Shown here in pieces: positions 14 to 16,523 of a DNA stretch of 25,560 nt (position 1 is its first letter; each line of letters starts with the position of its first letter). Source of the stretch: a virus; IMG/VR virus record IMGVR_UViG_3300021519_000065, positions 1 through 25,560 of that record; one strand, 5' to 3'. The notes under the pieces were generated by a model. It worked only from the letters and a program-made list of their open reading frames with translations, did no database searches and was not told where the DNA came from. Position numbers and translations under genes: made by a program.

Positions 14-319
14 ATGGCATCGGTGGTATTCTTTGATGCTTATGAAAATGTTGAAGAATACGATTGGGATTACTGCCAAAAGAAGATTGCTATTTGGAAA
101 AAAGAACCTGTTAACGCTTTTTTTTTGCAGATGCCTTTGCAAGAATTGATGGGCTTTTTAAATGGTTACAATATCAATTTCCTGAGCTATTTTCAAGCGA
201 CCGAAACGCTGACAAAAGCACATTTGGAAGCAATCTACACCAGCTTATCGGCGGAGCAGAAAGAAGGATTTACAGCCAGGCATTTAATATCCTCTGTGAA
301 GGAAACGCGGCAGAGTTAA
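14..319 (+). CDS. Tail assembly chaperone, short (0-frame) form; possibly 5' partial
   Basis: This 101-aa product sits directly before the tape measure gene, the usual place of the gpG-type chaperone that coats the tape measure during tail assembly. The assignment rests on position and on the slippery run inside the gene, not on a recognised domain. The N-terminal part (MASVVFFDAYENVEEY) is acidic and aromatic. The reading frame is open to the left window edge and no clear ribosome site precedes this ATG, so the true start may lie upstream. After the T9 run at 118-126 the frame stays open for another 65 codons. That tail may be genuine, or it may be chance if most ribosomes shift to the -1 frame. 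Confidence 0.6.
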   Translation: MASVVFFDAYENVEEYDWDYCQKKIAIWKKEPVNAFFLQMPLQELMGFLNGYNINFLSYFQATETLTKAHLEAIYTSLSAEQKEGFTARHLISSVKETRQS

Positions 320-432
320 TTACAATACAAGGGTTCACGATAGAACAATACTACTTCTACATGAACGAAAAAGTACTAAGGGCAAAGAAACAGCAAGAAC
401 ATTTCGACAATGGCAGAAAAGGCCGTAATTGA
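14..432 (+). CDS. Tail assembly chaperone, long form made by -1 frameshift (gpGT-like)
   Basis: A -1 shift at T TTT TTT (118-124) joins 37 codons of the upstream frame to a frame open from 115 to 432, giving about 139 aa. The -1 frame has no ATG before position 361, so it is unlikely to be a separate gene. It fills the 90-base gap before the tape measure gene and overlaps that gene's start by 23 bases, as other junctions here do. Its C-terminal part (ITIQGFTIEQYYFYMNEK, then a Lys/Arg/Gln-rich helix) looks like real coding sequence. In lambda-type phages the GT fusion recruits tail tube subunits to the tape measure. The alternative is a homopolymer-length error in the assembly that split a single gene. 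Confidence 0.62.
118..126 (+). other. Slippery T9 run, probable -1 ribosomal frameshift site
   Basis: Nine T residues include a canonical X XXY YYZ heptamer in the correct phase: GCT|TTT|TTT is read in frame 0, and sliding back one base re-pairs TTT with TTT. The -1 frame has a stop at 112-114, just before the run, and then stays open to 432. A weak 5-bp hairpin (TTGCA at 125-129 with TGCAA at 138-142) lies immediately downstream. No strong pseudoknot was seen by eye. Confidence 0.6.
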
Positions 433-3400
433 GTTAGTAGTTGACCCAAGTGGGTTAAAGCCTGGTTACGATGCCTTGAAAGCGTTGGGCCAACTCGACA
501 TACAACAACAAGAGGCATTTACCAAGGCTAATGCCGAGTTTCAGGCATCACAGCAAAAGACTACGGTAGCGGTACAGAACACCGCTAAGGCAATCCAACA
601 GATACCAAAGGATATAATTGGTAACACTACAAAAAAAGCTGTTGATGACGTGGAAAAATCCATGAAACAGCTAGGAACTGAAACGGCGGCAGTTGCCATG
701 AAGTCGTTATCATTGCGTCAGCAATTAAGGCAAAATACACAAGCGTTGGCAGAGTTGGAAGTACAGGGCAAGCGCAATACCAAGGAGTACCAAATACTAT
801 TGGCTACTACTGGAGAGCTAAAGGATGCCATGAGTGATACTCAACAGGCAATTGCACGTACTGGTAGCGACACAAGGAATATTGAAGGAGTGATTGGAGT
901 AATGCAAGGCGCGACAGGAGTATTTGCAGCAGCATCAGGAGCCGCCGCGCTATTCGGTCAAGACAGTGCTGAATTACAAAAGCAACTATTGAAAGTCAAT
1001 GCTGCAATGTCACTATTGCAGGGCGTTCAATCGGTTCAAAACCTACTGCAAAAGGAAAGTAGCTCCGTATTGCTGTTTAAGAATATTCAGCAAAAGATAC
1101 AGAATTACTTGCTCAAAGAAAACACTACGATTACTGCCGTCAACACAGTAGCAGAAGAAGCCAATACGGTTGCAGAGGTTGAGAATACCGTTGCGCGTAC
1201 AGCCAACACAACGGCGGCGGCTAATGCAACAATAGCGACTAGGATACTTAATGCGGTAATGTCGGCAAACCCTGCACTGGCTGTGGCTGCTGCTATGTTG
1301 GCACTCGCAGCAGCTATGCAGGTTGTTATTAACTGGATTGAAAAAACCAATGTCAGCTTTGAAACACAACTGGAAATGCAAAAGTTGATAATTGAGGCGG
1401 TCAAGGATTACGAAAAAAATATTATCAGCACCGCAAAGGCTGCAAATGATGCCATTCAGCTAACGATTGAACAGCGCAAAAAAGAGGGAGCTTCACTTGA
1501 GGAAATACAGGCATTGGAAAACGAGCAAGTGCAGAATAGGATTAAGGCGGCAAATGAGGTTGCATATGCCAATAGCCAACAGATAAAGGACCTGCATTTG
1601 TACCGTCAAATATTGCAGGACATCAACAAGGAAACACAAGAATATGCATCCAAGGCTAAGAGCGCAACACTGGACAAGAAGCAGGTATTGGAATTGGAGC
1701 GATTGAATATGCTGCAAAAGTTGTATCAGGACCGTATCGAAAAGACACAGGGCATAATTGATGAACAGCGCAACGCCGAAATAGCTGGATTTCAATTTGA
1801 AAAACAACTGATTGACAAGTTCTATAATGACCATATTGCCAAGGCGCAAGAGGTGTCAATCAGGGCAATAAAACTCAGCAAGCAAAGGGAGCAGGCGGAG
1901 ATATCAGCAATACAAAATACCCTTAAGTTAGAGTTGCTCAATAGTGGCGAAAGTGAGGCGCAAAGGAAATTAGGCGAAGCCAAGGCACAAGAGGCAATTA
2001 AGCAGGTACGTTCTAAGTATGCCATTGACCGCCTGAACGACCAGCGCAAGGCCATTGATGCGGAATTACAGCTACAAACACAGGGCAGTCAACAGCAATT
2101 GGCATTGAAGCTATTGGATTTGTCCAAGGCGGAGCAAGCGGAACTGGCGGTACTGCACTTGACAACAAACGAGAAACTGGATATTGAAGCAAAGTACCAA
2201 AAGCAGCGTATTGATTTACAAGCTGAATACACTATGAATGTGGCATTAAGGGAACTCGCAGCACAAAAGGTGTTGATTAATGCTAAGTCGGCTATTGAAA
2301 AAGAGGGCAATAGGCAGATACTATCTGATAGTCTAGCATTAATTGACATTACACAGCAAGAGGAATTAGCCAAAGCCCGCGCCAATTATGATGAACTAAA
2401 AATATCATTTGAGCAATATGAAAGCGAATTAACCCGTATCAATGCTGATGCGCTAAATAAGCGTTACGATGCTGAAAAGGAGTTTAAGGTTAAGGAAATA
2501 GAGTTGCGTAGCACTGACATAAATACCACAGCCGACCATGAAAAGGCTGTACTTGAATTGCGTAAAAATGGGTTAACCACTGGTATATTTGCCAAGCAAA
2601 AAGCCACACAAGAGGAGTTTGATATTGAAAAACGCAGGTTACGTGCGGAAAAAGCATTGACTGACCAACAACTTACCGCAGGCGCTATCACAGTAGAGCA
2701 ATACGCACAAAAGCAACGCAAGATTGACGACGACCTAGCAGCTAACAAGCAAGCTAAAGACAAACAGTCATTTGAGTTTGCCGCCAACCTTGCAAACCAA
2801 GGGTTTCAACAGGTGGCTAAGTTTGCACAAATGGCGGTACAGGCATGGCAGGAGGCTAACGATGCCTACTATCAACAAAGGATTGCCACACTTGAAAAGG
2901 CTATGAATGCGGAACTATCACTCGATAATACTTCAAACGTTCAAAAGGCGGCCATTCGAAACAAGTATCTGAAAGAGGAAAGGGAAATCAAGCTGAAGCA
3001 ATGGAAGATTGACCAACAGGCCAAAGAAGTACAGGCAGGCATTAACATTGCATTGGGTATCACAAGCGCATTGGCTACATCGGGCAACATCTATGCCGGT
3101 ATTGCATTGGCTGCATTGGTAGCGGCTACTGGTGCGGTTGAATTGGGTATTATCAGCAGTGCCAAGCCACCAGCATTTGCGGAAGGTGTGGTGAACTTTC
3201 AAGGCAAAGGAACGGGCAATAGTGACAGCAATGTGGCGTTAATTTCGCACGGCGAAAGCGTTATCACTGCCGATGCCACCAACAAATACGCACCCTACCT
3301 TGAAATGATGAACGCAGGTATGGAAATCCCGCAGTTCAGCGCACCTACCGTGTCAAGCGAGGTAATGAATACCTTTGTTAACCATATGCCTGAGTTTGAT

Positions 3401-3547
3401 TACAACAAGTTTGGCGAAGTGGTTGCGGAAAAGCTGAAACAAAACCCGCAATTTCATTTGACACTTGACCAGCATGGATATAATGTCCATGTACAGAAAG
3501 GCATACACCGTACACAGGAATTGAACAACCGTATCAGCACTAAGTAA
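410..3547 (+). CDS. Tape measure protein
   Basis: This 1045-aa protein sets tail length and is threaded through the tail tube. Most of it is long, charged, Gln/Ala/Lys-rich helix of coiled-coil character (about residues 30-160 and 330-850). Hydrophobic stretches occur near residues 165-185, 285-310 and 925-955, as expected of tape measures that enter membranes. A short imperfect repeat around NTVAEEANTVAEVENTVA lies near residues 245-270. The C-terminal part, FAEGVVNFQGKGTGNSDSN followed by a HGESVITADAT stretch, matches the Gly-rich, GE-containing end common in Bacteroidota tape measures. No lysozyme or peptidase domain was seen. Its start overlaps the frameshifted chaperone frame, and the next gene begins 2 bases after its stop. 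Confidence 0.9.
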   Translation: MAEKAVIELVVDPSGLKPGYDALKALGQLDIQQQEAFTKANAEFQASQQKTTVAVQNTAKAIQQIPKDIIGNTTKKAVDDVEKSMKQLGTETAAVAMKSLSLRQQLRQNTQALAELEVQGKRNTKEYQILLATTGELKDAMSDTQQAIARTGSDTRNIEGVIGVMQGATGVFAAASGAAALFGQDSAELQKQLLKVNAAMSLLQGVQSVQNLLQKESSSVLLFKNIQQKIQNYLLKENTTITAVNTVAEEANTVAEVENTVARTANTTAAANATIATRILNAVMSANPALAVAAAMLALAAAMQVVINWIEKTNVSFETQLEMQKLIIEAVKDYEKNIISTAKAANDAIQLTIEQRKKEGASLEEIQALENEQVQNRIKAANEVAYANSQQIKDLHLYRQILQDINKETQEYASKAKSATLDKKQVLELERLNMLQKLYQDRIEKTQGIIDEQRNAEIAGFQFEKQLIDKFYNDHIAKAQEVSIRAIKLSKQREQAEISAIQNTLKLELLNSGESEAQRKLGEAKAQEAIKQVRSKYAIDRLNDQRKAIDAELQLQTQGSQQQLALKLLDLSKAEQAELAVLHLTTNEKLDIEAKYQKQRIDLQAEYTMNVALRELAAQKVLINAKSAIEKEGNRQILSDSLALIDITQQEELAKARANYDELKISFEQYESELTRINADALNKRYDAEKEFKVKEIELRSTDINTTADHEKAVLELRKNGLTTGIFAKQKATQEEFDIEKRRLRAEKALTDQQLTAGAITVEQYAQKQRKIDDDLAANKQAKDKQSFEFAANLANQGFQQVAKFAQMAVQAWQEANDAYYQQRIATLEKAMNAELSLDNTSNVQKAAIRNKYLKEEREIKLKQWKIDQQAKEVQAGINIALGITSALATSGNIYAGIALAALVAATGAVELGIISSAKPPAFAEGVVNFQGKGTGNSDSNVALISHGESVITADATNKYAPYLEMMNAGMEIPQFSAPTVSSEVMNTFVNHMPEFDYNKFGEVVAEKLKQNPQFHLTLDQHGYNVHVQKGIHRTQELNNRISTK

Positions 3548-3549
3548 GT

Positions 3550-6387
3550 ATGTGGATTTATACACTCATAGACTACACCACAAACCCGCTAGGGGATAGC
3601 ACGGTTATTAAGGAGCCTGTGTCATGGGATAAGCTAACCATCAAGTACAACCGCGACAAGAAGTACCATGGTTTTTTCGATTTTCTTGATGATAGTTTGC
3701 AGGCGATGCAGTTCCGCAATTTTCCCGGTTCGCCAGCCTTTGACATCCTGACCAATGCCTATGATACTGATGGTGCAGCGGCAGAGGTGCACCTCAATTT
3801 ATCCTATCAATGCAATCCCAGTAGCGCGGTTATTGATATGTACACAGCACGTCTTGACTTCACCCGATACAATAAAGGTGAAGGGCTGGAGGGGTGCTTT
3901 GTTGAGGTAGGCGGCATGAACGCCAGTGCCTATTTCAACTTTAAGAACCGTATTGACCAAGCCGTTAACCTCAATAGCCTAGTATCTTATGACAAGGCAT
4001 TGATGGCAAACCAAAACGTACAGCAAGCCGATTTGATACGGTTACAAACGGCTTATCAAAACTTCAATGGCGCGTTTTCATCATTGGTAGGTAGCAGTAC
4101 TGCCGACCTGAATAATGCCATTGCAGGCGGTGTCAATGCGGAGATATACTCAGCCTATACAATGGTTGCGTGTGTATTTGCAATACAGGCCGCAACCATA
4201 GCGGGTGCCCCTACATTGGATGGCACCAATGCCGACCTGTCACAAGCAACGTCATTCGGGTTACAGGAACAAGAGGCACCCGATGCCCCAACAGCAGCAG
4301 CAATCGCGGCGGCGGCATTGGCAATACAAACCACTATCAACGGACTTGTAAGCCCAAATACTCAGGATATTGTTGATGTGATATACGCTTACATTATTGC
4401 TAATGTGTTAGCTACTTATAACGGCGTACCAAGTACCACGGCAAGCAGCGCAACGGCGGCGCAATCGGTATTCGGGGCATATGCGGTTATCTATGCGGCT
4501 GTTATGCCTACTGGCGACTTACCTAGTTACCCTGGACTTGGTTTTGAATTGCCGCTACTGGACAAACCAATTACGTATAGCGAATATTGGACTGGTTCAT
4601 TATTTAGGGATAATACATACCCTTGTTGGACATTGGGGCTGACTTCGTCTGCGATGTTTTTATGGCCTACATTTAATCTTACATGGGACGACTTGACTGG
4701 TGGTGTCAGTCAAGATGTTGAATATATTATTTATGGCAGCCCAACGTTTCCGGGTATTGTATGGACTGTGCCAACCGATAATAATTATTTATTTAGGGTT
4801 CAAATAATAGGTGAGTTTAAAGATACCGCACATAATACTGTTGATTGTACTGGTACTCCAACAGGATATGCAAGGGGTATGGGAACTTTTAACCCTCCGG
4901 GAGGTGGTTTCCCAAGTGGCGTACCGTTGGAGGTATATTTATTAGCATATTCTTCTGCTGGTATTACTTCTTTGGGAAGTTTTACCGCAGGGATATACTC
5001 AGCAGCAACGCAAACCTATTCAATAAATATTGATACATCTGTTTCAATTTCATTAACCGCTGGTAGCGATGTTAAGATTGTTTGGGGGTTTGCATATACT
5101 GACGTACCTGCTGGCAAGTCGACCAAATTTTCAATGAGTTATTCATTGTTTAACTTATACATAGGGCTTGTTACCACCTTTCCACTATCCAACGGGCAAG
5201 TATTTTTTGTCAATGAAGCATTAAGCAGGGTTGCAGAAAGTTTAACGCAAATGGATTTAAAGGTTTACAGCGACTTTTTCGGTCGTCCTGACGCCTTACC
5301 TTATGCGAGTGCTAATGATGGCTGTGGAGCGTTGGAATGTATCTCAAATGGTAGGTTTATACGTCAGGCATTGGTAGCAGCAGATGGAACGTTGGCAACC
5401 ATGTCCATATCCTTTAGCGACCTATTCCGTGACCTTGATGGCATCCACAGGCTAGGGATGGGACTTGAAGATGACCCCAACCGTACAGGCTACCAATTAT
5501 TGAGGGTCGAAAGTGAGGACTACTTCTACCAAAACAGCGTATTATTGACGTTGCCTAACGTGGCATTATTGAACACCGCACACGATGGGGCAAGCGACAT
5601 ATCAACGGTTGACCTTGGCTATCCTAACTGGCAATGTTGGAATATCAACGGGCTTGATGAATATAACACCCAGCGTAAATACAGGACTACCCTGCAATCA
5701 ATAACCAACAACAAGGATATTACCTGCAAATTCGTTACTTCGGGCTACGCTATTGAGTTTACACGTAGGCAAGGTGGTGGTAGCAGCGATTGGAGATGGG
5801 ATAATATGAATTTCCTTATCTGTTTGCGTAGGACATTGCCGGTACATTTACCGCCGTTTACCGATATCGCCATTGATGGGTTTAACCTTGATGCAACTAC
5901 CGCGGTCAATATCCTATCCGAAAACACAGGCACCACCTACAACGCTAGGATAAGCCCTGCACGTATCGCCTTGACTTGGATAAAGGCAATTTTTAGGAGT
6001 TACCAGGATTACTTGAATGGGCAACTGGTGTACACTTGGGGTGATGGCAACTACCTTGCTAAGTTCCAACCGACCGACCCTGCGGTATGGGCCTGTGAAA
6101 GTACAGAGAACCTATTAGGTGAAAACCAGCTACTTGATTACACAGTTTTCGATAATCCTAGCGACAATTATCCGTTATTTCGAAATGAATTGGTTACATT
6201 TGAGTATCCGTTAAGTATTGACCAATTCCTGATTATCAAGGCAAACCCATATAGGTTGATAGGGTATTCGGTTAATGGCGGCGCAACACGGTACGGATGG
6301 ATTGAACAAATGAGTTACGTGCCACAGATTGACGGCAGTACGCACGGGTTTATGGCTAAGTTCACATTAAGACCACAAATAGCATAA
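3550..6387 (+). CDS. Large tail tip / fibre-like structural protein
   Basis: This 945-aa protein follows the tape measure gene, where distal tail and tail-tip (Dit/Tal-type) proteins are encoded. The N-terminal 130 residues are beta-rich and aromatic (MWIYTLIDYTTNPLGDS onward). Residues about 180-320 are Ala/Thr-rich. A beta-rich central part (about 340-537) is encoded by visibly more AT-rich DNA than its flanks and may be a swapped domain. The C-terminal third returns to the local codon style and ends in a Trp/Tyr-rich region. No enzymatic motif was recognised, and assignment to the tail tip is by position and composition. Its TAA shares one base with the next ATG, so the two are probably translationally coupled. 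Confidence 0.65.
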   Translation: MWIYTLIDYTTNPLGDSTVIKEPVSWDKLTIKYNRDKKYHGFFDFLDDSLQAMQFRNFPGSPAFDILTNAYDTDGAAAEVHLNLSYQCNPSSAVIDMYTARLDFTRYNKGEGLEGCFVEVGGMNASAYFNFKNRIDQAVNLNSLVSYDKALMANQNVQQADLIRLQTAYQNFNGAFSSLVGSSTADLNNAIAGGVNAEIYSAYTMVACVFAIQAATIAGAPTLDGTNADLSQATSFGLQEQEAPDAPTAAAIAAAALAIQTTINGLVSPNTQDIVDVIYAYIIANVLATYNGVPSTTASSATAAQSVFGAYAVIYAAVMPTGDLPSYPGLGFELPLLDKPITYSEYWTGSLFRDNTYPCWTLGLTSSAMFLWPTFNLTWDDLTGGVSQDVEYIIYGSPTFPGIVWTVPTDNNYLFRVQIIGEFKDTAHNTVDCTGTPTGYARGMGTFNPPGGGFPSGVPLEVYLLAYSSAGITSLGSFTAGIYSAATQTYSINIDTSVSISLTAGSDVKIVWGFAYTDVPAGKSTKFSMSYSLFNLYIGLVTTFPLSNGQVFFVNEALSRVAESLTQMDLKVYSDFFGRPDALPYASANDGCGALECISNGRFIRQALVAADGTLATMSISFSDLFRDLDGIHRLGMGLEDDPNRTGYQLLRVESEDYFYQNSVLLTLPNVALLNTAHDGASDISTVDLGYPNWQCWNINGLDEYNTQRKYRTTLQSITNNKDITCKFVTSGYAIEFTRRQGGGSSDWRWDNMNFLICLRRTLPVHLPPFTDIAIDGFNLDATTAVNILSENTGTTYNARISPARIALTWIKAIFRSYQDYLNGQLVYTWGDGNYLAKFQPTDPAVWACESTENLLGENQLLDYTVFDNPSDNYPLFRNELVTFEYPLSIDQFLIIKANPYRLIGYSVNGGATRYGWIEQMSYVPQIDGSTHGFMAKFTLRPQIA

Positions 6388-7361
6388 TGGCAAACACACC
6401 AATAGTACCGCCTTACTCATTTCTGCAGCTTGCGGACCAAGCCAATAGCGCATGTGTGGTAGCTGTTAGTGGATGCCTGCCATTGACCGATTTTAATGGG
6501 TTGAAGTTTGAGTTGTTTTTTGATGACTACCTAGCCAGTGATTGCGGTGGCGGAGATGGCACCAGCACAATAATTTATGCCTTACCGACTAAGACACCAA
6601 TCCCACTTGGTGATATGTTTCCCGATTTTGGTTCATTGCCGTTGCCAAGGGTAATAAACAACGGTGGCCAAGTTAACAATGGTATTGCATATACTACCCA
6701 AGTAGCGATGGCAATTGTTGGATTGAATACGTTTGCTGAGTTAAATGCCATATTGAACGAACACCCTATACTTGATGGTGATTGCTTTACGTGGAATATC
6801 ATTATTGAGGGATTTGATAGCGAAACGGATATTATTTGCAGCCGTGAGTGCATTGGGCATAGCAATTGCTTTTACCGTGAGGATAATGCCTGCTACCTAG
6901 GTGTAGTAAATTACACCAACCGGGCAAATGCTTTTGGGTTTGAATACTTCGACAATGTAGGCACGACCAATGGCGTAACAAATACCATTACGTTACCGTT
7001 GTACTTACGCCGTCCACAAAACCCGACCAGCCAAAGTAACTACAAACTCAGCAATGGTGAAATATTGAAAACCTATTCGATTGTTGACCAAGAATGGCAG
7101 CTAGAAACGGCTAATATTGGTGCTGACTGGCACCAAAAGATTGCCGTAATGTTGGAGCATGACACAGTAAAAATAAAGAGCGAATATGCCAATGCGATAG
7201 TACCGAACCTTAACAATTTGAGTGGGTTTATTCCCATAGTAATAAGCGATAAATACGAAGCGGATTGGGGCGACTTGATGCCCCTTGTGGCACTATGCAA
7301 GGGCAAAGCAAAAGTGAAGAATGCAGTACCGATTGACATGATTAACAACAATTGTAAATAG
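6387..7361 (+). CDS. Cys-rich tail-associated structural protein, unknown function
   Basis: This 324-aa protein overlaps the tail tip gene by one base. It contains about ten cysteines, clustered near residues 24-30, 53 and 132-168 (for example IICSRECIGHSNCFY and DNACYL), which suggests disulphides or a metal site. The rest is mixed beta-type sequence with a basic, Cys-ending C-terminus. No signal peptide or membrane segment is visible. I do not recognise the family. Its place between the tail tip gene and the glycosyltransferase makes a minor tail or tip accessory protein likely, and it could be the substrate of the glycosyltransferase. Confidence 0.5.
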   Translation: MANTPIVPPYSFLQLADQANSACVVAVSGCLPLTDFNGLKFELFFDDYLASDCGGGDGTSTIIYALPTKTPIPLGDMFPDFGSLPLPRVINNGGQVNNGIAYTTQVAMAIVGLNTFAELNAILNEHPILDGDCFTWNIIIEGFDSETDIICSRECIGHSNCFYREDNACYLGVVNYTNRANAFGFEYFDNVGTTNGVTNTITLPLYLRRPQNPTSQSNYKLSNGEILKTYSIVDQEWQLETANIGADWHQKIAVMLEHDTVKIKSEYANAIVPNLNNLSGFIPIVISDKYEADWGDLMPLVALCKGKAKVKNAVPIDMINNNCK

Positions 7362-7372
7362 GCGAATTTGCG

Positions 7373-8296
7373 ATGACTAAAGGCATTTTATTACTGGCAC
7401 TAGGACACGGAGACTACGGGCGCATGGCGGCTACGTTGGCTGCATCCATAAGGGAGCACAGCGACATACCTATCCACCTTGTCCACTACGGAAGGGCGCT
7501 GGGAGTATTGAGCGAAAAGGAGAAGTCCTTTTTTACGTCAATGGAAGCAATCGACCGTGATTGCATCACCAAGGACGGCAAGCAAGAAGTATTTTTTAAG
7601 GCGAAAACCTGTATCTATGACCTTTCACCATTCGAGCAAACATTGTTTCTTGACGTAGACATGATATGGTTACCGAATGGAGCACGTAACAATTCAATCA
7701 ATAACCTGTTTGCCGAACTGGAAAGCGTAGAATTTGCTATGAAAAACAACGGGTGCATGGATATGTCCTCACCTGACCTATACAAGCATTCATTCCTATG
7801 GTGTTCACCAAGCGAGGTAAAGGAGGCATACGGGTTTACTGATGAATGCTATTACGACCTGCATAGTGAGCTGATATATTTCACCAAGTCGGAAGCCAAT
7901 AAAGCGTATTTTGATACGGTTAAAGAGATATTTGATAAGCCTAAGTTAGCGTTAGGGGCATGGGTGCAAAAGCAAGCCAACCAGCCAAAACAGTTGATTG
8001 AATTTTCAGGCGATATACCTGACGAGCCAGCGTTTTCAATTGCTTGTGCCATCCATAAGCATTACCCACATAAATTGAAATGGGAGCCGATATATTGGGA
8101 GCCAAGCGCAAGGAATTTAAACATTGCCCAAATCAATGCAGGCTTCTATGCGTTATCAATAGGCGGCAATACTTTTACTTCAACGACACAAAACAATTAC
8201 AACAACAGGGCCAAGTCGATTGGCGCAAAGTACGGGTTTAGTGCCTATCATGCACAGCCTAAGAAAAGTTGGAACAATCAAAGAACTTGGGTATGA
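7373..8296 (+). CDS. GT-A-fold glycosyltransferase
   Basis: This 307-aa protein starts with a hydrophobic strand followed by a helix (GILLLALGHGDYGRMAATLA), typical of nucleotide-sugar-binding folds. At residues 91-99 it has LFLDVDMIW, an LxxDxDxxW motif whose DxD (94-96) binds metal and nucleotide sugar in GT-A enzymes. The N-terminal 'IPIHLVHYG' strand also fits GT8-like or related enzymes. No membrane segment is seen. The gene is embedded between tail and portal genes with an 11-base gap upstream and an ATGA overlap with the portal start, so it is co-expressed with virion genes. Likely substrates are a virion protein or a host surface glycan. Donor and acceptor cannot be told from sequence. 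Confidence 0.72.
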   Translation: MTKGILLLALGHGDYGRMAATLAASIREHSDIPIHLVHYGRALGVLSEKEKSFFTSMEAIDRDCITKDGKQEVFFKAKTCIYDLSPFEQTLFLDVDMIWLPNGARNNSINNLFAELESVEFAMKNNGCMDMSSPDLYKHSFLWCSPSEVKEAYGFTDECYYDLHSELIYFTKSEANKAYFDTVKEIFDKPKLALGAWVQKQANQPKQLIEFSGDIPDEPAFSIACAIHKHYPHKLKWEPIYWEPSARNLNIAQINAGFYALSIGGNTFTSTTQNNYNNRAKSIGAKYGFSAYHAQPKKSWNNQRTWV

Positions 8297-10146
8297 CAAT
8301 TGCATTGACCCGTGAAAACCTAATCCCTTACTTCAAGGGTAAACAGAAGCACATCACTTACGAGCAATCAACTGATTTGTACAATCAGATGAAGATACAC
8401 GCCAATGGCGAATGGCCCGAAAAGCTACTTGGTAAAAAGAGGCCTAATGAACCTGGCGAAATTATGCTATACCGCAAAGAGAACTTTCAACCTCTTTCAA
8501 TGGCATACGTGGATAAGGTTTTTACGTCATTGGGCAAAATATTTCGGTCAGTTGACTTTATGCCCAAGTATGAGCAAAACGAAAAGTACGCCCCCAAAGG
8601 TGAGGACTTGGAAACTTACTGCGAGTACAGGTTTCCGCAAATGACAAGCCTAACGCATTGGACAAGTTCCGTATTGCTGAAAAACCAGTTAATGGATGCA
8701 AATGCGGTGGTAATGATTATGCCATTGAACGTAGCTGAGGGGGTTGCAGAAAATGAATATTACAAGCCATACCCATTTGTATTTAACAGCCCCAACGTTT
8801 ACGAATACAAAGAGGGCGAGTTAGCTATATTGCTTGCTGATGAAAAGGTCAAGCTAGGCAACCAGTTAAAGCCAACTGGACAAGTATTTTACGTTGTAAC
8901 CGATACTATTTTCCAACGTTGGGAGCAAGTCAATACCGACCTGCTATACTCAATGGTATGGGAGTTTGAGCATAACTGCCAATCAATGCCAGCGTTTCGA
9001 GTTAGGGGCGTGGTGTTTAAACAGATTGACGGTGCGGTGCTGTGGAATAGCCGACTATTCCCTATGGTGCCTGAATTGAACGAGGCGTTATTGAAAGAGG
9101 ATGACTTACGTGCAATCTTTGCCCAACACGTACACCCACAAAAATGGGAATGGGCTAACCAAACCTGTGACGATTGCAGGGGTACTGGAACGGTGGCAAT
9201 TAATAGCGTACTTGGTTTTGGCGGTACAGGTTCGGACGGCAAGCGTAACGAAACATGTAAGAAGTGCGGCGGTAACGGTTCAGTGGGTATGCCATCACCA
9301 TTTGATAAGAAAGTGATAAGAGCGGCTAATGCTGGTTTACAAGAAAGCCCTGCACCGATACCACCGATGGGATATATCACGTTGCCTACCGACATTATCA
9401 AGCTATTGATGGAGAAAGCGGAACTGCACTATTACAAGGCGCTTGCAGCAATCAATTTCCAGTTCCTTGACCAAACACCATTGAACATAAGCGGCGAAGC
9501 TAAGGGCATTGATAAAGACGAATTGAATAACTTTGTTTACTCGATTGCATCCGATGTTATTTGGTGTATGGACAAAATTTACTACTATACCGCTATGTAC
9601 CGTTACGGCTACAACGTGGGGTATAGCGAAGATGCGATTGAGGAGATAGTGCCCGAAGTGCCAGTACCGAATAAGTTTGATTTGTTGAGCAGCGATTATT
9701 TGGCAGAGGAGTTGAAAGTGGTACGGGATGCCAACCTATCAACATTGTTGATTAGGCAAGCAGAGATTGACTTTATGCAAAAGAAGTACGATTGCGACCC
9801 CGAAGCAAGGGAAACGCTGCGCACTATGTACGAGATTGACCCGTTGCCGGTAATGACCGATGCTGATAAAGCAAACGCCAAACTTAACGGCGGTTGCACT
9901 GATTTGGATTACGTGGTGTCCACAGGACTGCAAACATTTATAACCCGTGCGCTGGCAGAGAATGAAGATTTTAATGATTTGCCACTACAGGAGAAGTTGG
10001 CAATTATTGAAGCTATGGCACAGGAGAAATTGGATAGCATGAATGCGTCAAGCGAAGTGAAGCAAGCCGCAGCGATTAAGGTGGCCAAAGCATCAAGGAC
10101 ATTGCCTGCACCGCCAGCAGTTCCCGACCCTGTTATTACTGACTGA
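8293..10146 (+). CDS. Portal protein with internal DnaJ-like zinc-finger motif
   Basis: I chose the ATG at 8293 because it forms an ATGA overlap with the glycosyltransferase stop. An in-frame ATG at 8269 would add 8 residues. The 617-aa product has the size and order of a portal: it directly precedes a MuF-like gene, scaffold and capsid. The sequence alternates alpha and beta, with a helical region around residues 360-450 (a portal-type stem and wing) and an acidic, Ala/Pro-rich C-terminus. Residues 292-295 and 322-325 form two CxxC pairs, in CDDCRGTG and CKKCGGNG, like two CxxCxGxG repeats of the DnaJ zinc-binding region. This is unusual for a portal and may bind Zn to stabilise a loop. Portal identity is inferred mainly from size, context and fold-like composition. 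Confidence 0.72.
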   Translation: MTIALTRENLIPYFKGKQKHITYEQSTDLYNQMKIHANGEWPEKLLGKKRPNEPGEIMLYRKENFQPLSMAYVDKVFTSLGKIFRSVDFMPKYEQNEKYAPKGEDLETYCEYRFPQMTSLTHWTSSVLLKNQLMDANAVVMIMPLNVAEGVAENEYYKPYPFVFNSPNVYEYKEGELAILLADEKVKLGNQLKPTGQVFYVVTDTIFQRWEQVNTDLLYSMVWEFEHNCQSMPAFRVRGVVFKQIDGAVLWNSRLFPMVPELNEALLKEDDLRAIFAQHVHPQKWEWANQTCDDCRGTGTVAINSVLGFGGTGSDGKRNETCKKCGGNGSVGMPSPFDKKVIRAANAGLQESPAPIPPMGYITLPTDIIKLLMEKAELHYYKALAAINFQFLDQTPLNISGEAKGIDKDELNNFVYSIASDVIWCMDKIYYYTAMYRYGYNVGYSEDAIEEIVPEVPVPNKFDLLSSDYLAEELKVVRDANLSTLLIRQAEIDFMQKKYDCDPEARETLRTMYEIDPLPVMTDADKANAKLNGGCTDLDYVVSTGLQTFITRALAENEDFNDLPLQEKLAIIEAMAQEKLDSMNASSEVKQAAAIKVAKASRTLPAPPAVPDPVITD

Positions 10147-10988
10147 TGACTGATGACCTGTTAAAAACCATAAAAGGGGCCATTGATAAACTCAATGAGG
10201 ACATCCCCTATGTGCAGGAATATGCATTGAATGAGTTGATTGACCTCACTAAAACATTGGATACTAAGAATGGTATCATTGTGCCATCGGTTAAAAACCT
10301 ATCCATAGTGAGCAAGATACGGGGCAAAATGGATGCCATTGTATTAACCAAGTCATATAAAAACTCAGTAAGTGATTTTCTTGCTGAATACGACCAAGTG
10401 GCGCAAATACAGAATGAGTACTTTAGGGACTTGACCGATAAATTTACGCCAGGCAAAGTGTTGGACCAGATACAGGTGCAGGCCGTTGAAGATGCAGCTA
10501 ACTCATTGACAGAGGCAGGGGTAAATAGCGCGGTGGTAGACCCGATTAAACAGGTGCTTAGCCGTAACATAAACGGCGGCGGAAGCTATTCGGGATTGGT
10601 GAAGCAAATGACGGATTTGTTGAGCGATACCGAAACGACAGAGGGGTTATTGACCAAGCACGTAAAGCAAATCACCACGGATGGATTGAACCAATACAGC
10701 CGCCAATACACTCAGGTTATCAGCAGTGATTTAGGATTAAACAAATTCAGTTATGATGGGGCATTAATCAAGACTTCCCGTTGCTTTTGCCGTTCAATGG
10801 TAGGTATCCGTTACTTTACAATGGAAGATGTGCCTGATATGTTAGCAGGCAAATTCAAGAGTATGGATTGCGATATCTACGATAAGACAGGATTACCCTA
10901 CGGACTTATTGAGGGTACTAATCCCGGTAATTTCCTTACTTTCCTTGGTGGGTGGGGATGTCAGCATGTTGCAATTCCTGTATTGTAA
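10146..10988 (+). CDS. MuF-like minor head (head morphogenesis) protein
   Basis: This 280-aa protein shares one base (TGATG) with the portal stop. Its N-terminal 190 residues are mostly helical. The C-terminal part holds the conserved pattern of phage Mu F-like head proteins: TSRCFCRSM near residues 210-218, then a spacer, then GGWGCQHVAIPV at the end, where most members have a CRH motif. These proteins associate with the portal inside the procapsid, and some carry extra effector domains. None is evident here. The last 53 bases are overlapped by a minus-strand gene. Confidence 0.8.
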   Translation: MTDDLLKTIKGAIDKLNEDIPYVQEYALNELIDLTKTLDTKNGIIVPSVKNLSIVSKIRGKMDAIVLTKSYKNSVSDFLAEYDQVAQIQNEYFRDLTDKFTPGKVLDQIQVQAVEDAANSLTEAGVNSAVVDPIKQVLSRNINGGGSYSGLVKQMTDLLSDTETTEGLLTKHVKQITTDGLNQYSRQYTQVISSDLGLNKFSYDGALIKTSRCFCRSMVGIRYFTMEDVPDMLAGKFKSMDCDIYDKTGLPYGLIEGTNPGNFLTFLGGWGCQHVAIPVL

Positions 10989-11133
10989 AATCAATCCTTT
11001 TATCCATTAACTCCAATTGCCTGTAAACCGCTGGCCAATCAATAGCAGAGGACTTTGATATTAATACATTAGTAGTTGGCATGGTTGTTTTTAATTGGTG
11101 ATTGACCAATATCATTGATGCCTTTCCGCTCAT
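10936..11133 (-). CDS. Small antisense protein, second gene of the minus-strand cassette
   Basis: A 65-aa protein on the minus strand. Its ATG overlaps the stop of the RHH-like gene as ATGA, the classic mark of a two-gene operon, which is the main reason for calling it. The C-terminal half (IDWPAVYRQLELMDKRIDF) looks like amphipathic helices with a charged surface, and the end is HADIPTHQGK. The last 53 bases run antisense into the 3' end of the MuF-like gene. No family was recognised. It might be a partner of the RHH protein, for example a toxin-like or regulatory peptide, but nothing in the sequence establishes that. Confidence 0.5.
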   Translation of the reverse strand: MSGKASMILVNHQLKTTMPTTNVLISKSSAIDWPAVYRQLELMDKRIDFTIQELQHADIPTHQGK

Positions 11134-11309
11134 AACTTATCGCAGTCTATTTTCCTCAAAACGGTTTGGATTGCCTCTTGACGCGAGGGCATAGTTTGCC
11201 CCTTTTTTTTCTTGCTCAAAGCGTACTGGACGCATAGCAATTTATCCCGTACTTCGTCAGGTACATTGGTGAGTAGTATATCACCTTTGGTATCTCGTTT
11301 GGCTGCCAT
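11130..11309 (-). CDS. Ribbon-helix-helix (Arc/CopG-like) small protein
   Basis: A 59-aa minus-strand gene starting at ATG 11309. The layout fits a ribbon-helix-helix DNA-binding protein. A short strand (GDILLTNVPDEVRDKL) runs into helix 1, a basic turn with four Lys (SKKKKGQ) follows, and then helix 2 (SRQEAIQTVLRKI). RHH proteins dimerise and insert the paired strand in the DNA major groove, often repressing their own promoter. A promoter-like sequence lies upstream at 11326-11357 on this strand. It is co-directional and ATGA-linked with the 65-aa gene and lies opposite to all the surrounding virion genes. The family call is from pattern only, and no paralogue occurs in the window. Confidence 0.62.
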   Translation of the reverse strand: MAAKRDTKGDILLTNVPDEVRDKLLCVQYALSKKKKGQTMPSRQEAIQTVLRKIDCDKL

Positions 11310-11325
11310 AATATAAGCTATATAA

Positions 11326-11357
11326 CAAAGTAAGGCATTTCATTTGACATATGCAAA
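11326..11357 (-). promoter_or_regulatory. Candidate Bacteroidota-type promoter for the antisense cassette, with inverted repeats
   Basis: Read on the minus strand, TTTG (complement of 11354-11357), 20 bases, then TTACTTTG (complement of 11326-11333) resembles TTTG-N19-21-TAnnTTTG with one mismatch. It lies 16 bases before the RHH start. The same segment holds nested inverted repeats: ATTTG (11342-11346) with CAAAT (11354-11358), and GCATTT (11335-11340) with AAATGC (11367-11372). These could be an operator for the RHH protein. A perfect -7-like TATATTTG also occurs on the + strand at 11377-11384, but it lacks a -33 element. Confidence 0.4.
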
Positions 11358-11388
11358 TAGCCACAAAAATGCTTATTATATTTGGTGT

Positions 11389-12294
11389 ATGACAGTAGGC
11401 GAACAGTTTGGAGCATTACTTACCAAGATGGGGGTGGATGCTACCGATGCAAAGTACAAAGACTTGGTAACAATTACCGCAGCCGTACCTGATGGCGTGG
11501 ATTTTACTAGTCAACTATTTACACGTAAAGAAGCGGAGCAATTGCTAAACAATGATGCTACGTTTCAATTTACCCAAAAGGGCAAACACCTTGGCGGAGT
11601 GGATAGTGCGTTGAAAGACCTACTGGATAACTTTACCGACCTTTCCCCTGCCAAAAAAGAAGCCATCCTAAACGAGCGTAACACTTACGGCAAAATTCCA
11701 TTGCTGAAAGATGCGATTGCGGAAATGGTTGAACAGGCCAAAGGTGCAACTGGTGACGATAAAAAAGCATTAACCGCTAAGATTACAGAATTGAACGGCC
11801 AAATATTGGCAGCCAACGAAAGCAAGCAAACCGAAATTAAAGCATTGACCGACAAATACGAAGGTCAATTTACCAAAGCGCAAATCAAGCAGTTGCTATC
11901 TTCGTTCGAGTACCCTGACGGTACTGGATTGTCAAAAGATGACTACCTGCTATTGGCAGAAAACAAAATCAACCAGAACCTGGCAGCGAAAAAAGCTACC
12001 TACGTTCGTAATGGTGAAGATATTATACTCAAGCAACAGGATAATCCTGAACTTGAATACTTTGAAAACAACAAGGCGGTGTCATTCCCTGACTTCGTAA
12101 AAAGTACCCTGACGGAAGCCAAACTTCTAAAAGTAAATGGCGGCGGCGCTAAGCCCGCAGCGAACACTCCATCGGCTGCTAACCCAACCGATACACGTGC
12201 CCAACAGCTGAACGCAAAGCAACAGATTTTGCAAGAAGCACTAGGGAACAGAAACGTGGCACAGTTCGCAGAAGTTGCGGGTGCTGCGTCTTAA
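11389..12294 (+). CDS. Capsid scaffolding protein
   Basis: The ATG at 11389 gives 301 aa (MTVGEQFGALLTKMG). A longer reading from a TTG at 11344 would run through the putative intergenic regulatory region and is less likely. The middle is coiled coil (about residues 110-170, KALTAKITELNGQILAANES), followed by a helical part. The C-terminal region is Ala/Pro/Asn-rich, with GGGAKPAANTPSAANPTDT as a disordered linker and a short terminal helix (QQLNAKQQILQEALGN). This build, and its place directly before the major capsid gene, are typical of scaffold proteins that template procapsid assembly through their C-terminus and then leave. No protease domain is seen. Confidence 0.75.
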   Translation: MTVGEQFGALLTKMGVDATDAKYKDLVTITAAVPDGVDFTSQLFTRKEAEQLLNNDATFQFTQKGKHLGGVDSALKDLLDNFTDLSPAKKEAILNERNTYGKIPLLKDAIAEMVEQAKGATGDDKKALTAKITELNGQILAANESKQTEIKALTDKYEGQFTKAQIKQLLSSFEYPDGTGLSKDDYLLLAENKINQNLAAKKATYVRNGEDIILKQQDNPELEYFENNKAVSFPDFVKSTLTEAKLLKVNGGGAKPAANTPSAANPTDTRAQQLNAKQQILQEALGNRNVAQFAEVAGAAS

Positions 12295-12318
12295 CGCATA
12301 AATTCAACCCTCACACAT

Positions 12319-13494
12319 ATGGCAATTCAATTAGGATTAGGCTACGCCCCCTACTTGCTTGACACGTTGCAACACGTGGCTGGCAACGCTTACCCCGGCT
12401 TTAAAATAACCCCTACTGGCTTCTTGAAGTCAGCACTGGAAAACGAGCCATCATTGATGCTCCCTGAAATCGAAAAGAACCGACTAAGGTTGAGCACTAC
12501 TTCAGGTAACATCAAGTCGATACAGCTGGCTTACAAACCACGTATCACACCTGACCAAACCAGTTCGTCTCAGGACTGTACCAACAACTTGATACCTGTA
12601 TTCAATGAGATGTCTTTGGACGTTTCAGGATACCGCCAGTTTTCGTTCTACATCAGCAATGATACAGTAGCGCGTTACCCTGACGAATATGCAAAATCAA
12701 TGGCAATGGGTGGCGCACCTACTGACCTAATGATGGCTAACGTACAGGAAGTAATGCACGTTATCAATGGCATTGTTGGTGCTATTGACCGTGACCTGAT
12801 TGGCAAGATTGCATTCGGCAAGAACGTAGCCAACGGTAACAGCGGTAACAACACGCCAACCACGTTGAACTTCAACAAAAATGGCTTCACCTTTGACTTT
12901 TCACAAGGTATCACTGGTTTGATTGACCAGGCGATGCAGAATGAAATGTACAGCGAAGCCAACCCGCTTATCTTTGTGGGTGCAGGTAAGTTCAATGCTT
13001 ACCAACAAGCGGTGCTTCGTGCCATCGGTCAAAACGGTGCAGGCTACAATGCAGCAGCATTGAACAGCGCATACAAATGGTACTATGACTTGTATTGGGA
13101 GAGTGCTTTTGGTACTGATACCATTGGCGTGTTCCAACCGGGTGCGTATGGCTTTGTTGACTTGCAAAAGTACATTGGCTTTACCGCTTTTGGGGGCAAA
13201 GACAGTTTGTACCAAACATTCCAAATCACTCTGCCAGTTGGCGACCCTAACACAGAGGATGGAACTGTTGACCTGATGACCTTCGATGCAAGGCTGATCA
13301 AAATCACTTGCCCTACTACTATTGCTAACGGCTACGGTCAAACCGTATCGGTACAAGATGGATGGCAGTTGATTATCGGTAAGAACTACGGCCTGTATCA
13401 GTTGCCTACCACCGCGGTACAATCAACTGATAGGTTGTATGGTAACAACGGTTCACTGCTTTACAAAGCAACAAATGACTGCGTAAGCTGCTAA
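12319..13494 (+). CDS. Major capsid protein
   Basis: This 391-aa protein follows the scaffold gene by 24 bases, with an A/C-rich leader. Size, position and composition fit an HK97-type major capsid protein. It has an N-terminal arm (residues 1-45), an extended segment (TSGNIKSIQLAYKPRIT), a helix near 140-165 that could be a spine helix (NVQEVMHVINGIVGAIDRDLI), and a beta-rich C-terminal half ending in NDCVSC. The family was not recognised by a specific signature. Codon use is smoother here, with more GGT, AAC and CTG, than in neighbours, as expected for a highly expressed virion gene. Confidence 0.8.
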   Translation: MAIQLGLGYAPYLLDTLQHVAGNAYPGFKITPTGFLKSALENEPSLMLPEIEKNRLRLSTTSGNIKSIQLAYKPRITPDQTSSSQDCTNNLIPVFNEMSLDVSGYRQFSFYISNDTVARYPDEYAKSMAMGGAPTDLMMANVQEVMHVINGIVGAIDRDLIGKIAFGKNVANGNSGNNTPTTLNFNKNGFTFDFSQGITGLIDQAMQNEMYSEANPLIFVGAGKFNAYQQAVLRAIGQNGAGYNAAALNSAYKWYYDLYWESAFGTDTIGVFQPGAYGFVDLQKYIGFTAFGGKDSLYQTFQITLPVGDPNTEDGTVDLMTFDARLIKITCPTTIANGYGQTVSVQDGWQLIIGKNYGLYQLPTTAVQSTDRLYGNNGSLLYKATNDCVSC

Positions 13495-13495
13495 T

Positions 13496-14548
13496 ATGAG
13501 CTTTTGCCTAAAGGATTATGTCGGTATAGACGGATGTGAGCGTACAGCCCCATTATCGGGGCTGTACGTAAACAGACTACCGGGTGTATCGCTAAAGTCC
13601 ATCAAGGCACTTGCCAATGAGGAGCAAACCACATACTTAGAAGTGTGGGACAATATCCAAGATAGGGCAGAGGTTCAATTTTACGCAGATGTAACACAGG
13701 AGTTCAATAAGCGGTTTCGGTTGCGCCGGGTGGCAGATAGTGCCAATTTGGGGGACGTTCTTTCCTTTACTAGCAATACGCCAAAATCCAATCAATATAG
13801 GGGATGGACGTGTGACCTTACCTATGGTTCAAACATATGGACAAGTAGCCAATTGGCTATAATCCATGTGCAACAAATATCCCTTTACCTACTTGCGCCC
13901 GTAAGCGGTTTGGAGGTAATTATACAGGATGTTTTGAGGGGTAAAACGCTATTCACCACTACTATTGATGCGGTGGCTGGCTGGAACTATATTGACGTGG
14001 AACAGGACTATTCAACCTACCGCATATTTGTGGGTTATGATGCTACCAATGTGGACAGCGTTACCCACGTGCTACCTATCAATATTCAGAACATATTTAG
14101 CCAGTTTTTAGGCGGTTCAATATTTGGGGGTAACGGGAAAGCGTTGTTTTATGGCACTACCTACAATAGGTTGACAAACACCATAGGTCCGTACACTCAA
14201 AACACGTTTGGCATGACGGGCATTATGACTGTTGCCTGCACGTATGCTTCAATAGTGTGTAACAACAAGCGCAACTTTGCTGACGTATGGTGGTATCTGT
14301 TGGGTATCGAAATGATTACCGAGAGCCTATTTACCGACAAGATTAATAAGTGGTCAACTATCGACCGTGAAAAACGCCAGCAGCTACGTAATGAGATGCG
14401 GGCCATGTATGAGGTGAAACTGGATCAGGCTGTCAAAGGTATCAACCTGAGTACCGGCGATAATTGCCTTGAGTGTGACCAGCAGGTGCAAACGGCATGG
14501 GTAACACCATACGGCGGCCAGGGTAGAGTTGGGGGTATATTGCCATGA
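13496..14548 (+). CDS. Head-tail connector / head completion-like protein
   Basis: This 350-aa protein begins 1 base after the capsid stop. The N-terminal part has CERTAPLSGLYVNRLPGVSL, followed by a helix and EEQTTYLEVWDNIQ, a C..PLSGLYvn.LPGvsl pattern I associate with structural proteins of Bacteroidota phages. The middle (about 105-185) is a beta-sandwich-like region (LEVIIQDVLRGKTLFT) and the C-terminal part is helical, with a CLEC motif near the end (about residue 324). Position between capsid and a neck protein suggests a connector, adaptor or decoration role. Its TGA overlaps the next ATG (ATGA). Confidence 0.55.
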   Translation: MSFCLKDYVGIDGCERTAPLSGLYVNRLPGVSLKSIKALANEEQTTYLEVWDNIQDRAEVQFYADVTQEFNKRFRLRRVADSANLGDVLSFTSNTPKSNQYRGWTCDLTYGSNIWTSSQLAIIHVQQISLYLLAPVSGLEVIIQDVLRGKTLFTTTIDAVAGWNYIDVEQDYSTYRIFVGYDATNVDSVTHVLPINIQNIFSQFLGGSIFGGNGKALFYGTTYNRLTNTIGPYTQNTFGMTGIMTVACTYASIVCNNKRNFADVWWYLLGIEMITESLFTDKINKWSTIDREKRQQLRNEMRAMYEVKLDQAVKGINLSTGDNCLECDQQVQTAWVTPYGGQGRVGGILP

Positions 14549-15129
14549 TAGTCAGGATTAACAGCAACCTAGCGAAATCGGCTGACAGCCTAGCGGCTAA
14601 GTTGAAGTTGCTTGAACCTGGCGGGGCGATTTACGACAACATCATGCGGGCGGTATCGCTCACAATGTTATCGGCAGTAAAGCGGAGGATATACCTTGAG
14701 GGACGGGCGGCGGATGGGAGCGATATAGGACAGTATAGTACAAGGCCTATTTACATTAACCCTAAAAACAGCCCAAAGGATTTCGGCAGGCCGATTGGGA
14801 AAACCGGGAGCAAGTTTAAAACAGGTGAAAAGAAAGGACAGGACCACAAAACACGGTACTTTCCTGACGGTTATAAAGGGTTCAGGAATTCGATAGGTAG
14901 GCCGGTAAACAAAGTAAACCTATCATTGAGTGGACAGATGAATGCACAGTTTGTGGTGCTGGTGGATGGAAGTAGGTACTTTTTAGGGTGGCCCAACGGA
15001 TTATATGGGGACATTGCAGAGGGGCAAGAAGGGCATTGGAGAAAGAAGATATTTAAGTTGACAGACGCGGAGTTGGCGTTATTTGGTTTGGAATTTGAAA
15101 AACAACTGATACTTGCCTTACAACAATGA
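14545..15129 (+). CDS. Neck / tail-completion protein (HK97 gp10- or Mu-virion-morphogenesis-like)
   Basis: A basic 194-aa protein, ATGA-coupled to the previous gene. It starts with a helix (LAKSADSLAAKLKLL), followed by AVSLTMLSAVKRRIYLEG and then GRAADGSDIGQYS. The early helix, arginine-rich helix and 'G..ADG..ig.Y' turn are typical of phage virion-morphogenesis or gp10-type tail-completion proteins. Residues 70-125 are Lys/Gly-rich and probably exposed, and the end is an amphipathic helix (ELALFGLEFEKQLILAL). It probably sits in the neck between head and tail, and its place after the connector gene agrees. Confidence 0.6.
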   Translation: MIVRINSNLAKSADSLAAKLKLLEPGGAIYDNIMRAVSLTMLSAVKRRIYLEGRAADGSDIGQYSTRPIYINPKNSPKDFGRPIGKTGSKFKTGEKKGQDHKTRYFPDGYKGFRNSIGRPVNKVNLSLSGQMNAQFVVLVDGSRYFLGWPNGLYGDIAEGQEGHWRKKIFKLTDAELALFGLEFEKQLILALQQ

Positions 15130-15703
15130 AATATGCTTATTGATTAATGGCATCCTACAAAAAGGAAACCTAAGCGATAGCCGTTTCAGTGGGGCCCAGT
15201 ATCACGGGTTGACATACGAAACAATTGAGAAGGATAGCAATGAAAAGGCTTTTCCCTCTGAGTATAAAAACGGGAATTTTGAACAGGTAACTGTTGACAA
15301 TAATTACCCTTTAGTTCTTTGGCACAAATTACTAGGTAAGCGTTACGATAAGGTAACGGGTGAGCAACAGTTTGGCGGTCACTTATACAAGACGCGAGAA
15401 GTCACACAGGGCTATTGCGTGGTATTTGCTAACCGGGACGTAATTAGGGTAACACAGGAAAACCTTGAGGCATTGGTTGCGTTGGGATTTCCAAATGTGA
15501 TTGACCCTGAATTGGTGGCACCATACCAAATGGACTACTGCGAAGTAAACCCAACCGGCAGCAGCTTGATTACTGCAGCTATTTGGGCGCAAGAGTTTAA
15601 AGGTGCGGAACTACCGATAACGCCTGAAAATTACCTAGTGCGAATTGATTACCAAGTAATAACAACATTTAGAAACAACTGTATTAAAATTTGCGATTGC
15701 TAA
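15113..15703 (+). CDS. Structural protein of the neck/tail region, non-ATG start
   Basis: There is no usable ATG in this frame near the 5' end. TTG at 15113 (17-base overlap with the previous gene, 196 aa) and TTG at 15140 (starting with INGILQKGNLS, just after the previous stop) are the best starts, and the second would fit the compact spacing well. The body is alpha/beta with a conserved-looking middle (YPLVLWHKLLGKRYDKVTGE) and a Cys-rich end (NNCIKICDC). I do not recognise the family. Position just before the tail-tube candidate suggests a tail terminator, connector or other neck component. Confidence 0.55.
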   Translation: MPYNNEICLLINGILQKGNLSDSRFSGAQYHGLTYETIEKDSNEKAFPSEYKNGNFEQVTVDNNYPLVLWHKLLGKRYDKVTGEQQFGGHLYKTREVTQGYCVVFANRDVIRVTQENLEALVALGFPNVIDPELVAPYQMDYCEVNPTGSSLITAAIWAQEFKGAELPITPENYLVRIDYQVITTFRNNCIKICDC

Positions 15704-15723
15704 ACCCTTAAAAACACTATATC

Positions 15724-16260
15724 ATGGCATATACTCAATGTATTGGATTACCTGCTTACAACTGCGACCCGTGCGAGAGCGTGGAGCAAGGCAGGGTAAG
15801 GGCTTTTGCCCTAGTAAACAAAAGCTATATCGCAACGATATTGGCTAACCCTGCCGATAGCGCAACGTGGGCCGCTGGCGTTGGTAGTGGTCAAATATTT
15901 ATCGTGCCTGAAAGCGGCGGTAACGTGGCATTGCCATCAGCTAAAACCGTTACTGGTTTTGGTGATACCCCTGACTTTTTCATCAACGATGAATACACCG
16001 CTACCTTGCGTGTACCAAACTACAAATCAAACTGTACGTTTTGGAACTTAGCAAAGCAAACAGTAGGTGAATGGCACTTGGTGACTAAAACCAGCAGCCA
16101 AATTCAAGTTGGTGACAAACCTTGTGTTATCACCGGCGGCGCTGAAATCAAAGATGACCTGTATAGCCAAGTGACCTGGGAAATCCAGTTCAAATGGGTA
16201 TCACGTAACCTACCATGTCCGTTCAATGCTCCGGCTGACATTTTTGTCTGCCCAAACTAA
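15724..16260 (+). CDS. Probable major tail tube protein
   Basis: This 178-aa protein begins with CIGLPAYNCDPCESVEQGRVR and has a beta-rich body with many Thr, Gly and Asn. Length, beta content and place after the neck genes suit a siphovirus tail tube subunit. The leader (AAACCCTTAAAAACACTATATC) is A-rich like that of the capsid gene, which points to strong translation. Cysteines near the N-terminus (C..CDPC) and the C-terminus (CPFN..., FVCPN) could form disulphides. A decoration protein is an alternative. Unusually, the tape measure gene lies some 15 kb upstream rather than just downstream. Confidence 0.6.
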   Translation: MAYTQCIGLPAYNCDPCESVEQGRVRAFALVNKSYIATILANPADSATWAAGVGSGQIFIVPESGGNVALPSAKTVTGFGDTPDFFINDEYTATLRVPNYKSNCTFWNLAKQTVGEWHLVTKTSSQIQVGDKPCVITGGAEIKDDLYSQVTWEIQFKWVSRNLPCPFNAPADIFVCPN

Positions 16261-16277
16261 CCCCGGCTGACCCTTGT

Positions 16278-16523
16278 ATGGCTAGGTGCTTAAAGGCGGT
16301 ACGGTTCACAACCGTAATAGGTCAGTCGGTGTACAATTACTCCGCCATGACAGGTGATAATACCGCTATTTCGGCAACATCCGAGGTTGAGGCGGTTATG
16401 TATGGTGCAGCTAATATTGATTTGGCAGTATCACCTCCTGAGATAACCTTGGGGGCTACTGATATTACATTCAACTTTTCACCTGCCGATGTGGTGGGGG
16501 TAACAATCCTATTTTATCCATGA
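16278..16523 (+). CDS. Small protein of unknown function, coupled to the fibre gene
   Basis: An 81-aa protein 17 bases after the tail tube candidate. Its TGA overlaps the fibre ATG (ATGA). It is rich in Thr, Val, Ala and small residues, and looks like a beta-strand protein (ITLGATDITFNFSPADVVGV). No membrane segment or catalytic motif was found. The context suggests a small virion protein or one linked to the fibre. I do not recognise it. Confidence 0.5.
   Translation: MARCLKAVRFTTVIGQSVYNYSAMTGDNTAISATSEVEAVMYGAANIDLAVSPPEITLGATDITFNFSPADVVGVTILFYP

Follow-up and report, generated by a model that had tools for sequence, protein, structure and literature searches.

A probable lambda G/GT-type tail assembly chaperone gene with two alternative C-termini at a run of nine T's in an orphan phage

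The beginning of the IMG/VR record IMGVR_UViG_3300021519_000065 raises the question of whether one short stretch of DNA, read in two frames from a run of nine T's, encodes two different protein ends, and by which route the frame is changed. The window analyzed here is the entire virus record (25,560 bases). The features under discussion are listed below, with reference to L148 (a viral contig and the nearest relative) and to L122 (another relative).
Positions 2 to 319, + strand: 0-frame open reading frame of the tail-chaperone-like gene (short, G-like product), its 5' end cut by the contig edge
Positions 115 to 432, + strand: -1 frame, an open reading frame with 32 of 96 residues identical to the L148 -1 tail
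Positions 118 to 126, + strand: candidate T9 slip site, exactly T9 in seven of eight relatives found regardless of the run
Positions 118 to 124, + strand: T TTT TTT heptamer inside T9, in phase for a -1 shift (L122 has T TTT TTC there, equally in phase)
Positions 127 to 319, + strand: putative doubly coding region, 64 codons of the 0-frame tail overlapping the -1 frame
Positions 410 to 3547, + strand: tape-measure protein gene, 25% identity over 1119 columns with the L148 tape-measure protein (E 8e-49)
Positions 3550 to 6387, + strand: downstream tail protein with a phrog_15220 match, which served as the anchor to find relatives

The original prediction placed a T TTT TTT heptamer, in the right phase, between the 0 frame and a -1 frame open from 115 to 432, and this description was borne out. 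T9 lies in the 0-frame codon context GCT TTT TTT TTG and is the longest homopolymer of the whole contig. No start codon was seen early in the -1 frame, in agreement with the proposal that it has no early ATG. The 0 frame ends with the stop codon at 317-319, and the -1 frame would, starting at about 124, supply a long (GT-like) C-terminal extension of ~101 residues, running 23 nt into the tape-measure gene (ATG at 410). The start proposed at 14 does lie within the open frame, but ATG14 is very probably internal and the gene start beyond the contig edge, because the 0 frame runs open to that edge and the L148 protein extends ~120 residues further on the N-terminal side than the portion contained in the window; in the relatives, 133-159 codons precede the T run.

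The window phage is an orphan: viral and genome scans with its proteins gave nothing close. IMG/VR pattern scans with the -1 frame, the 0 frame and the tape-measure, tail and capsid proteins detected no relative, and the scan with an SbcC-like protein detected two distant ones. No relative was found in the genome collection with the window tape measure, and the phage-record searches gave only distant tape-measure, tail or portal matches. The homologues (n = 9) are L148 and eight from Bacteroidota genomes. The downstream tail protein, used as query against Bacteroidota genomes, yielded prophage loci (E down to 5e-27), and the genes preceding the tape measure in these loci, with further searches using them, provided eight homologues without reference to the run: L121, L131 and L142 (one genome, divergent sequences), L122, L123, L132, L133 and L143. 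L148 came from a DNA-pattern scan; since the pattern contained T9, the T9 of L148 is not counted as evidence and its frames are. The relatives are few, divergent and not phylogenetically independent, several loci are metagenome assemblies, and the probabilities given below are guides only.

Several other observations concern the window itself. The gene order at 410-16523 is odd, with chaperone, tape measure and distal tail protein before portal/capsid-like genes, and a probable glycosyltransferase gene (7373-8296, by eye) lies between the tail and portal/capsid-like genes. The portal-like protein (8269-10146) has a CxxCxGxG-rich stretch at residues ~297-340 that is similar to the DnaJ zinc domain, with a Pfam E of 0.012 that falls short of the cutoff. 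By eye, the large protein encoded at 16520-18961 has an N-terminus like a signal peptide, MKKLITILAATLIASVAFCQ, and NVGIGT-type motifs that recur, which is odd for a tail fibre.

Exactly nine T's are present in L121, L123, L131, L132, L133, L142 and L143 (seven of the eight unselected relatives), at loci of 43-65% G+C, and six of these seven have the codon context XXT TTT TTT TTG. Under a first-order model, the expected number of runs of at least nine T's per locus is at most 0.06 in L122, L123, L132, L133 and L143, and 0.3-2.3 in the window, L121, L131 and L142. The eighth unselected relative, L122, carries T TTT TTC in the same phase with six T's only; the window and the seven others have nine or more consecutive A or T inside the ORF, whereas L122 does not. 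From the run on, a C-terminal ORF of 86-117 codons is open in all nine homologues; the shifted frame is -1 in the window and eight relatives and +1 in L132. The 0 frame continues past the run for 62 codons in L121, 67 in L122, 66 in L123, 61 in L131, 92 in L133, 70 in L142, 44 in L143 and about 70 in L148, i.e., 44-92 codons in eight of nine relatives and 61-92 in seven of nine. L132 (1192-1553) is a GC-rich T9 homologue with the long C-terminal ORF in +1 and a 0-frame tail of just 18 codons, and double coding is thus not universal among the relatives. Homologue alignment, put forward originally as a check, recovered T9 and both tails in relatives, and the sequence comparison confirms T9 with both frames as a real feature, more than chance.

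This comparison also bears on two other explanations of the run. Were it the product of faulty sequencing or assembly, or of a genuine one-base indel, the locus would be a single gene broken at a homopolymer; the T run had been suggested to be one base short in the assembly. Homopolymers are prone to error, and public phage records of another family (L008 and L009, see below) are split at an A run. However, the seven unselected relatives, from several independent assemblies, also have exactly T9, and both frames are open with both tails conserved in relatives; on these sequences an assembly slip at T9 is effectively excluded. Phase variation, with replication slippage changing the T9 length in the DNA and toggling the long form, is very improbable: homopolymers are generally hypermutable, but a phase-variable tract would show several lengths and all T-run relatives have exactly nine.

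The original prediction of a programmed -1 change at the T run, with 127-319 coding twice, is supported by homologues that share the run, phase, frames and gene order. Codon usage is coding-like in both frames of 127-319, and none of 6200 overlapping windows of other contig genes had an open alternative frame scoring as well as this region. Openness was analyzed by resampling the synonymous codons of one frame and asking how often the other remained open over the observed length, with the window and L132 left out; the seven loci combined gave a Fisher probability of about 4e-5 in each direction. L123 and L131 were not significant singly, which, with the 18-codon tail of L132, fits the alternative that the -1 fusion alone is functional and the 0-frame continuation past the run is non-functional read-on. 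This alternative appears unlikely, because the window 0-frame protein is homologous to the 0-frame proteins of L148, L123, L122 and L131 and its tail is alignable with each of theirs (z 4-7), and because 0-frame similarity in the window/L148 overlap exceeds what the -1 proteins explain, a level reached by 0 of 20,000 resamplings. In the same overlap, only 10 of 20,000 resamplings based on the 0-frame proteins reached the observed -1 similarity; several further pairs agree with this excess of similarity. DNA conservation in the close pair L122/L123 is 73% in the overlap vs 66% upstream, and the overlap evolves mainly with a 0-frame signature, the short -1-only part having a -1 signature. Slower change at synonymous sites, which the original prediction had proposed as a mark of double coding, was not detected in this pair (12/25 4-fold degenerate 0-frame sites differ in the overlap vs 18/40 in the comparison set). 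Judged from these comparisons, both frames are maintained, with seemingly stronger constraint on the 0 frame, and one DNA stretch apparently encodes two different protein ends.

We suggest that this is, with good probability, a lambda G/GT-type tail assembly chaperone gene with two alternative C-termini produced by a programmed change at T9. Normal decoding would lead to the short product, in which the shared N-terminal domain is followed by 64 residues of 0-frame tail. With a programmed switch into -1 at T9, the long product would result, having a C-terminus of ~100 residues in the other frame that terminates shortly after the start of the tape-measure gene. Both products would have the N-terminus in common and alternative C-termini from the same DNA; we infer that both are made and that both are chaperones.

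The run, both frames, their conservation and the gene order can be read directly from the sequences. L148 repeats the arrangement, including the 23-nt overlap with the tape measure, which starts MAEKVVIEF in L148 and MAEKAVIEL in the window. The chaperone-like gene is directly upstream of the tape measure in the window (410), L148 (9124), L122, L123, L132 and L142, and no recognisable tape measure follows it in L131. In L121 a second, paralogous chaperone-like gene without T9 (7580-8179) lies between the T9 gene and the tape measure. Pfam and PHROG profiles of annotated chaperone families gave no significant match for the window gene, and the structure model of the -1 tail alone was poor (pLDDT 58).

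In lambda, the G/GT gene lies by the tape measure and produces a short product and a long -1-frame product with a common N-terminus (PMC5009743). The window gene resembles it in adjoining the tape measure and in this arrangement of short and long products. It differs in the site, T9 rather than the lambda heptamer, and in its position, the lambda shift being near the 3' end of G whereas the window has 64 more 0-frame codons; sequence homology between the window gene and lambda G/GT was not detectable. The closest published arrangement, compared by published description, is 17.5/17.5* of SPP1, with a predicted -1 shift at UUUUUUC, 112 shared amino acids and products of 173 and 297 aa (PMC6316719); by arithmetic from these lengths, ~61 codons overlap in two frames. 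Both are -1 changes in a chaperone gene at a T-rich site with the tape measure next, but SPP1 has a heptamer rather than T9 and a host of another phylum. The long doubly open region, considered unlike most known cases in the original prediction, is unusual in part, but SPP1 17.5/17.5* is a published precedent.

Tail chaperone frameshifting is textbook ribosomal recoding, and the locus was originally read in this way. The ribosomal heptamer is indeed in phase, but it offers only one of two routes, and polymerase slippage at T9 fits at least equally well. As a matter of judgement, we lean slightly towards RNA-polymerase slippage at T9 as the main route in the window; otherwise the route would be ribosomal -1 shifting on T TTT TTT. 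The two may both contribute, since among dnaX homologues both the slippage and the ribosomal route are in use (PMC5009743).

Nine A or T is the usual slippage length in bacteria (PMC1088944), and transcriptional slippage at A9/T9 has been described for Thermus dnaX and Shigella mxiE (PMC1088944, PMC5009743). These genes are similar to the window gene in having an A or T run in the coding sequence and products in more than one frame; they are cellular genes, while in the window gene slippage is deduced from the run. The run is kept at nine, including a TTG leucine codon (the per-locus frequencies of TTG for Leu have a product of 7e-5), which points beyond the ribosomal heptamer. No report of transcriptional slippage in tail chaperone genes was found in the literature searched, which was largely outside subscription papers.

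A purely ribosomal change, with two tRNAs slipping in tandem into the -1 frame on T TTT TTT, is a real possibility, somewhat short of an even chance. The in-phase heptamer is present in the window and the -1 relatives, the lambda G-T shift has been shown, and L122 keeps T TTT TTC, an ideal ribosomal heptamer and the same site as the UUUUUUC predicted for SPP1 17.5 (PMC6316719); its six T's are too short for polymerase slippage, so the ribosomal route would be needed there at least. Against it, nine T's are retained where seven suffice, and GC-rich phages thereby keep TTG, a rare Leu codon; in addition, U_UUU_UUU is less shift-prone than A_AAA_AAG, and weakly shifty, in E. coli (PMC5009743). 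A downstream stimulatory RNA fold was sought and none was unusually stable (z -1.6 to 1.3). The L132 frames would require a +1 or -2 change, and polymerase slippage is able to supply either.

A parallel case was detected in the phrog_8914 family (PDS1, B124-14, P2559Y), which shares with the window gene the position before the tape measure, Bacteroidota phages and a mid-gene run, here A9-A10. The loci with phrog_8914-like proteins are L016-L095, L096-L102, L002-L005 and L010-L015, the gene being at about 2501-3260 in most, and some of these proteins are annotated as tail assembly chaperone. KKK at residue ~132-134 is encoded by AAA AAA AAA in 86 of 86 distinct proteins, and 52% of their other lysines are AAA. 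In 536 kb around these genes there are 105 A runs of at least nine (about one per locus) and no such T runs. A slip to either side would usually reach a stop within a few codons, shortening the protein from ~255 to ~135-140 residues. Unlike in the window, the long form is in the 0 frame, the slip truncates and a doubly coded region is absent; the arrangement looks like a mirror image, with the short form arising by slipping. In two public records the gene is split at the A run where relatives have A9-A10: Croceibacter phage P2559S (L008:1890-1930, A8) and Bacteroides phage BF8P1 (L009:1890-1915, A11).

Signs of a remote relationship between the long C-terminus and phrog_8914 are no more than suggestive: hhalign gave P 0.0032 and 0.008 for long tails and P 0.6 for 0-frame tails. 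Comparing the window with phrog_8914 directly gave no significant result, and a pair of divergent proteins from prophages, L107 and L108, did not link the two. The phrog_8914 structure model was good (pLDDT 92.7), with no PDB match at E <= 0.001; its significant matches among viral structures are all unnamed.

Taken together, these data lead to the tentative hypothesis, to which we give close to an even chance, that Bacteroidota phages set the short:long chaperone ratio by polymerase slippage at a 9-10-base homopolymer and not ribosomally, with T9 and two alternative C-termini here, and A9-A10 and the long form in frame 0 in the phrog_8914 family. A mid-gene T9 in one lineage and nine to ten A's in another would suggest that the polymerase can operate the two-product logic in place of the ribosome. 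With its ~65 codons apparently conserved in both frames, the overlap would provide a small natural example of double coding. Such proteins will be missed or split by gene callers, and 'correcting' the homopolymer would fuse them erroneously.
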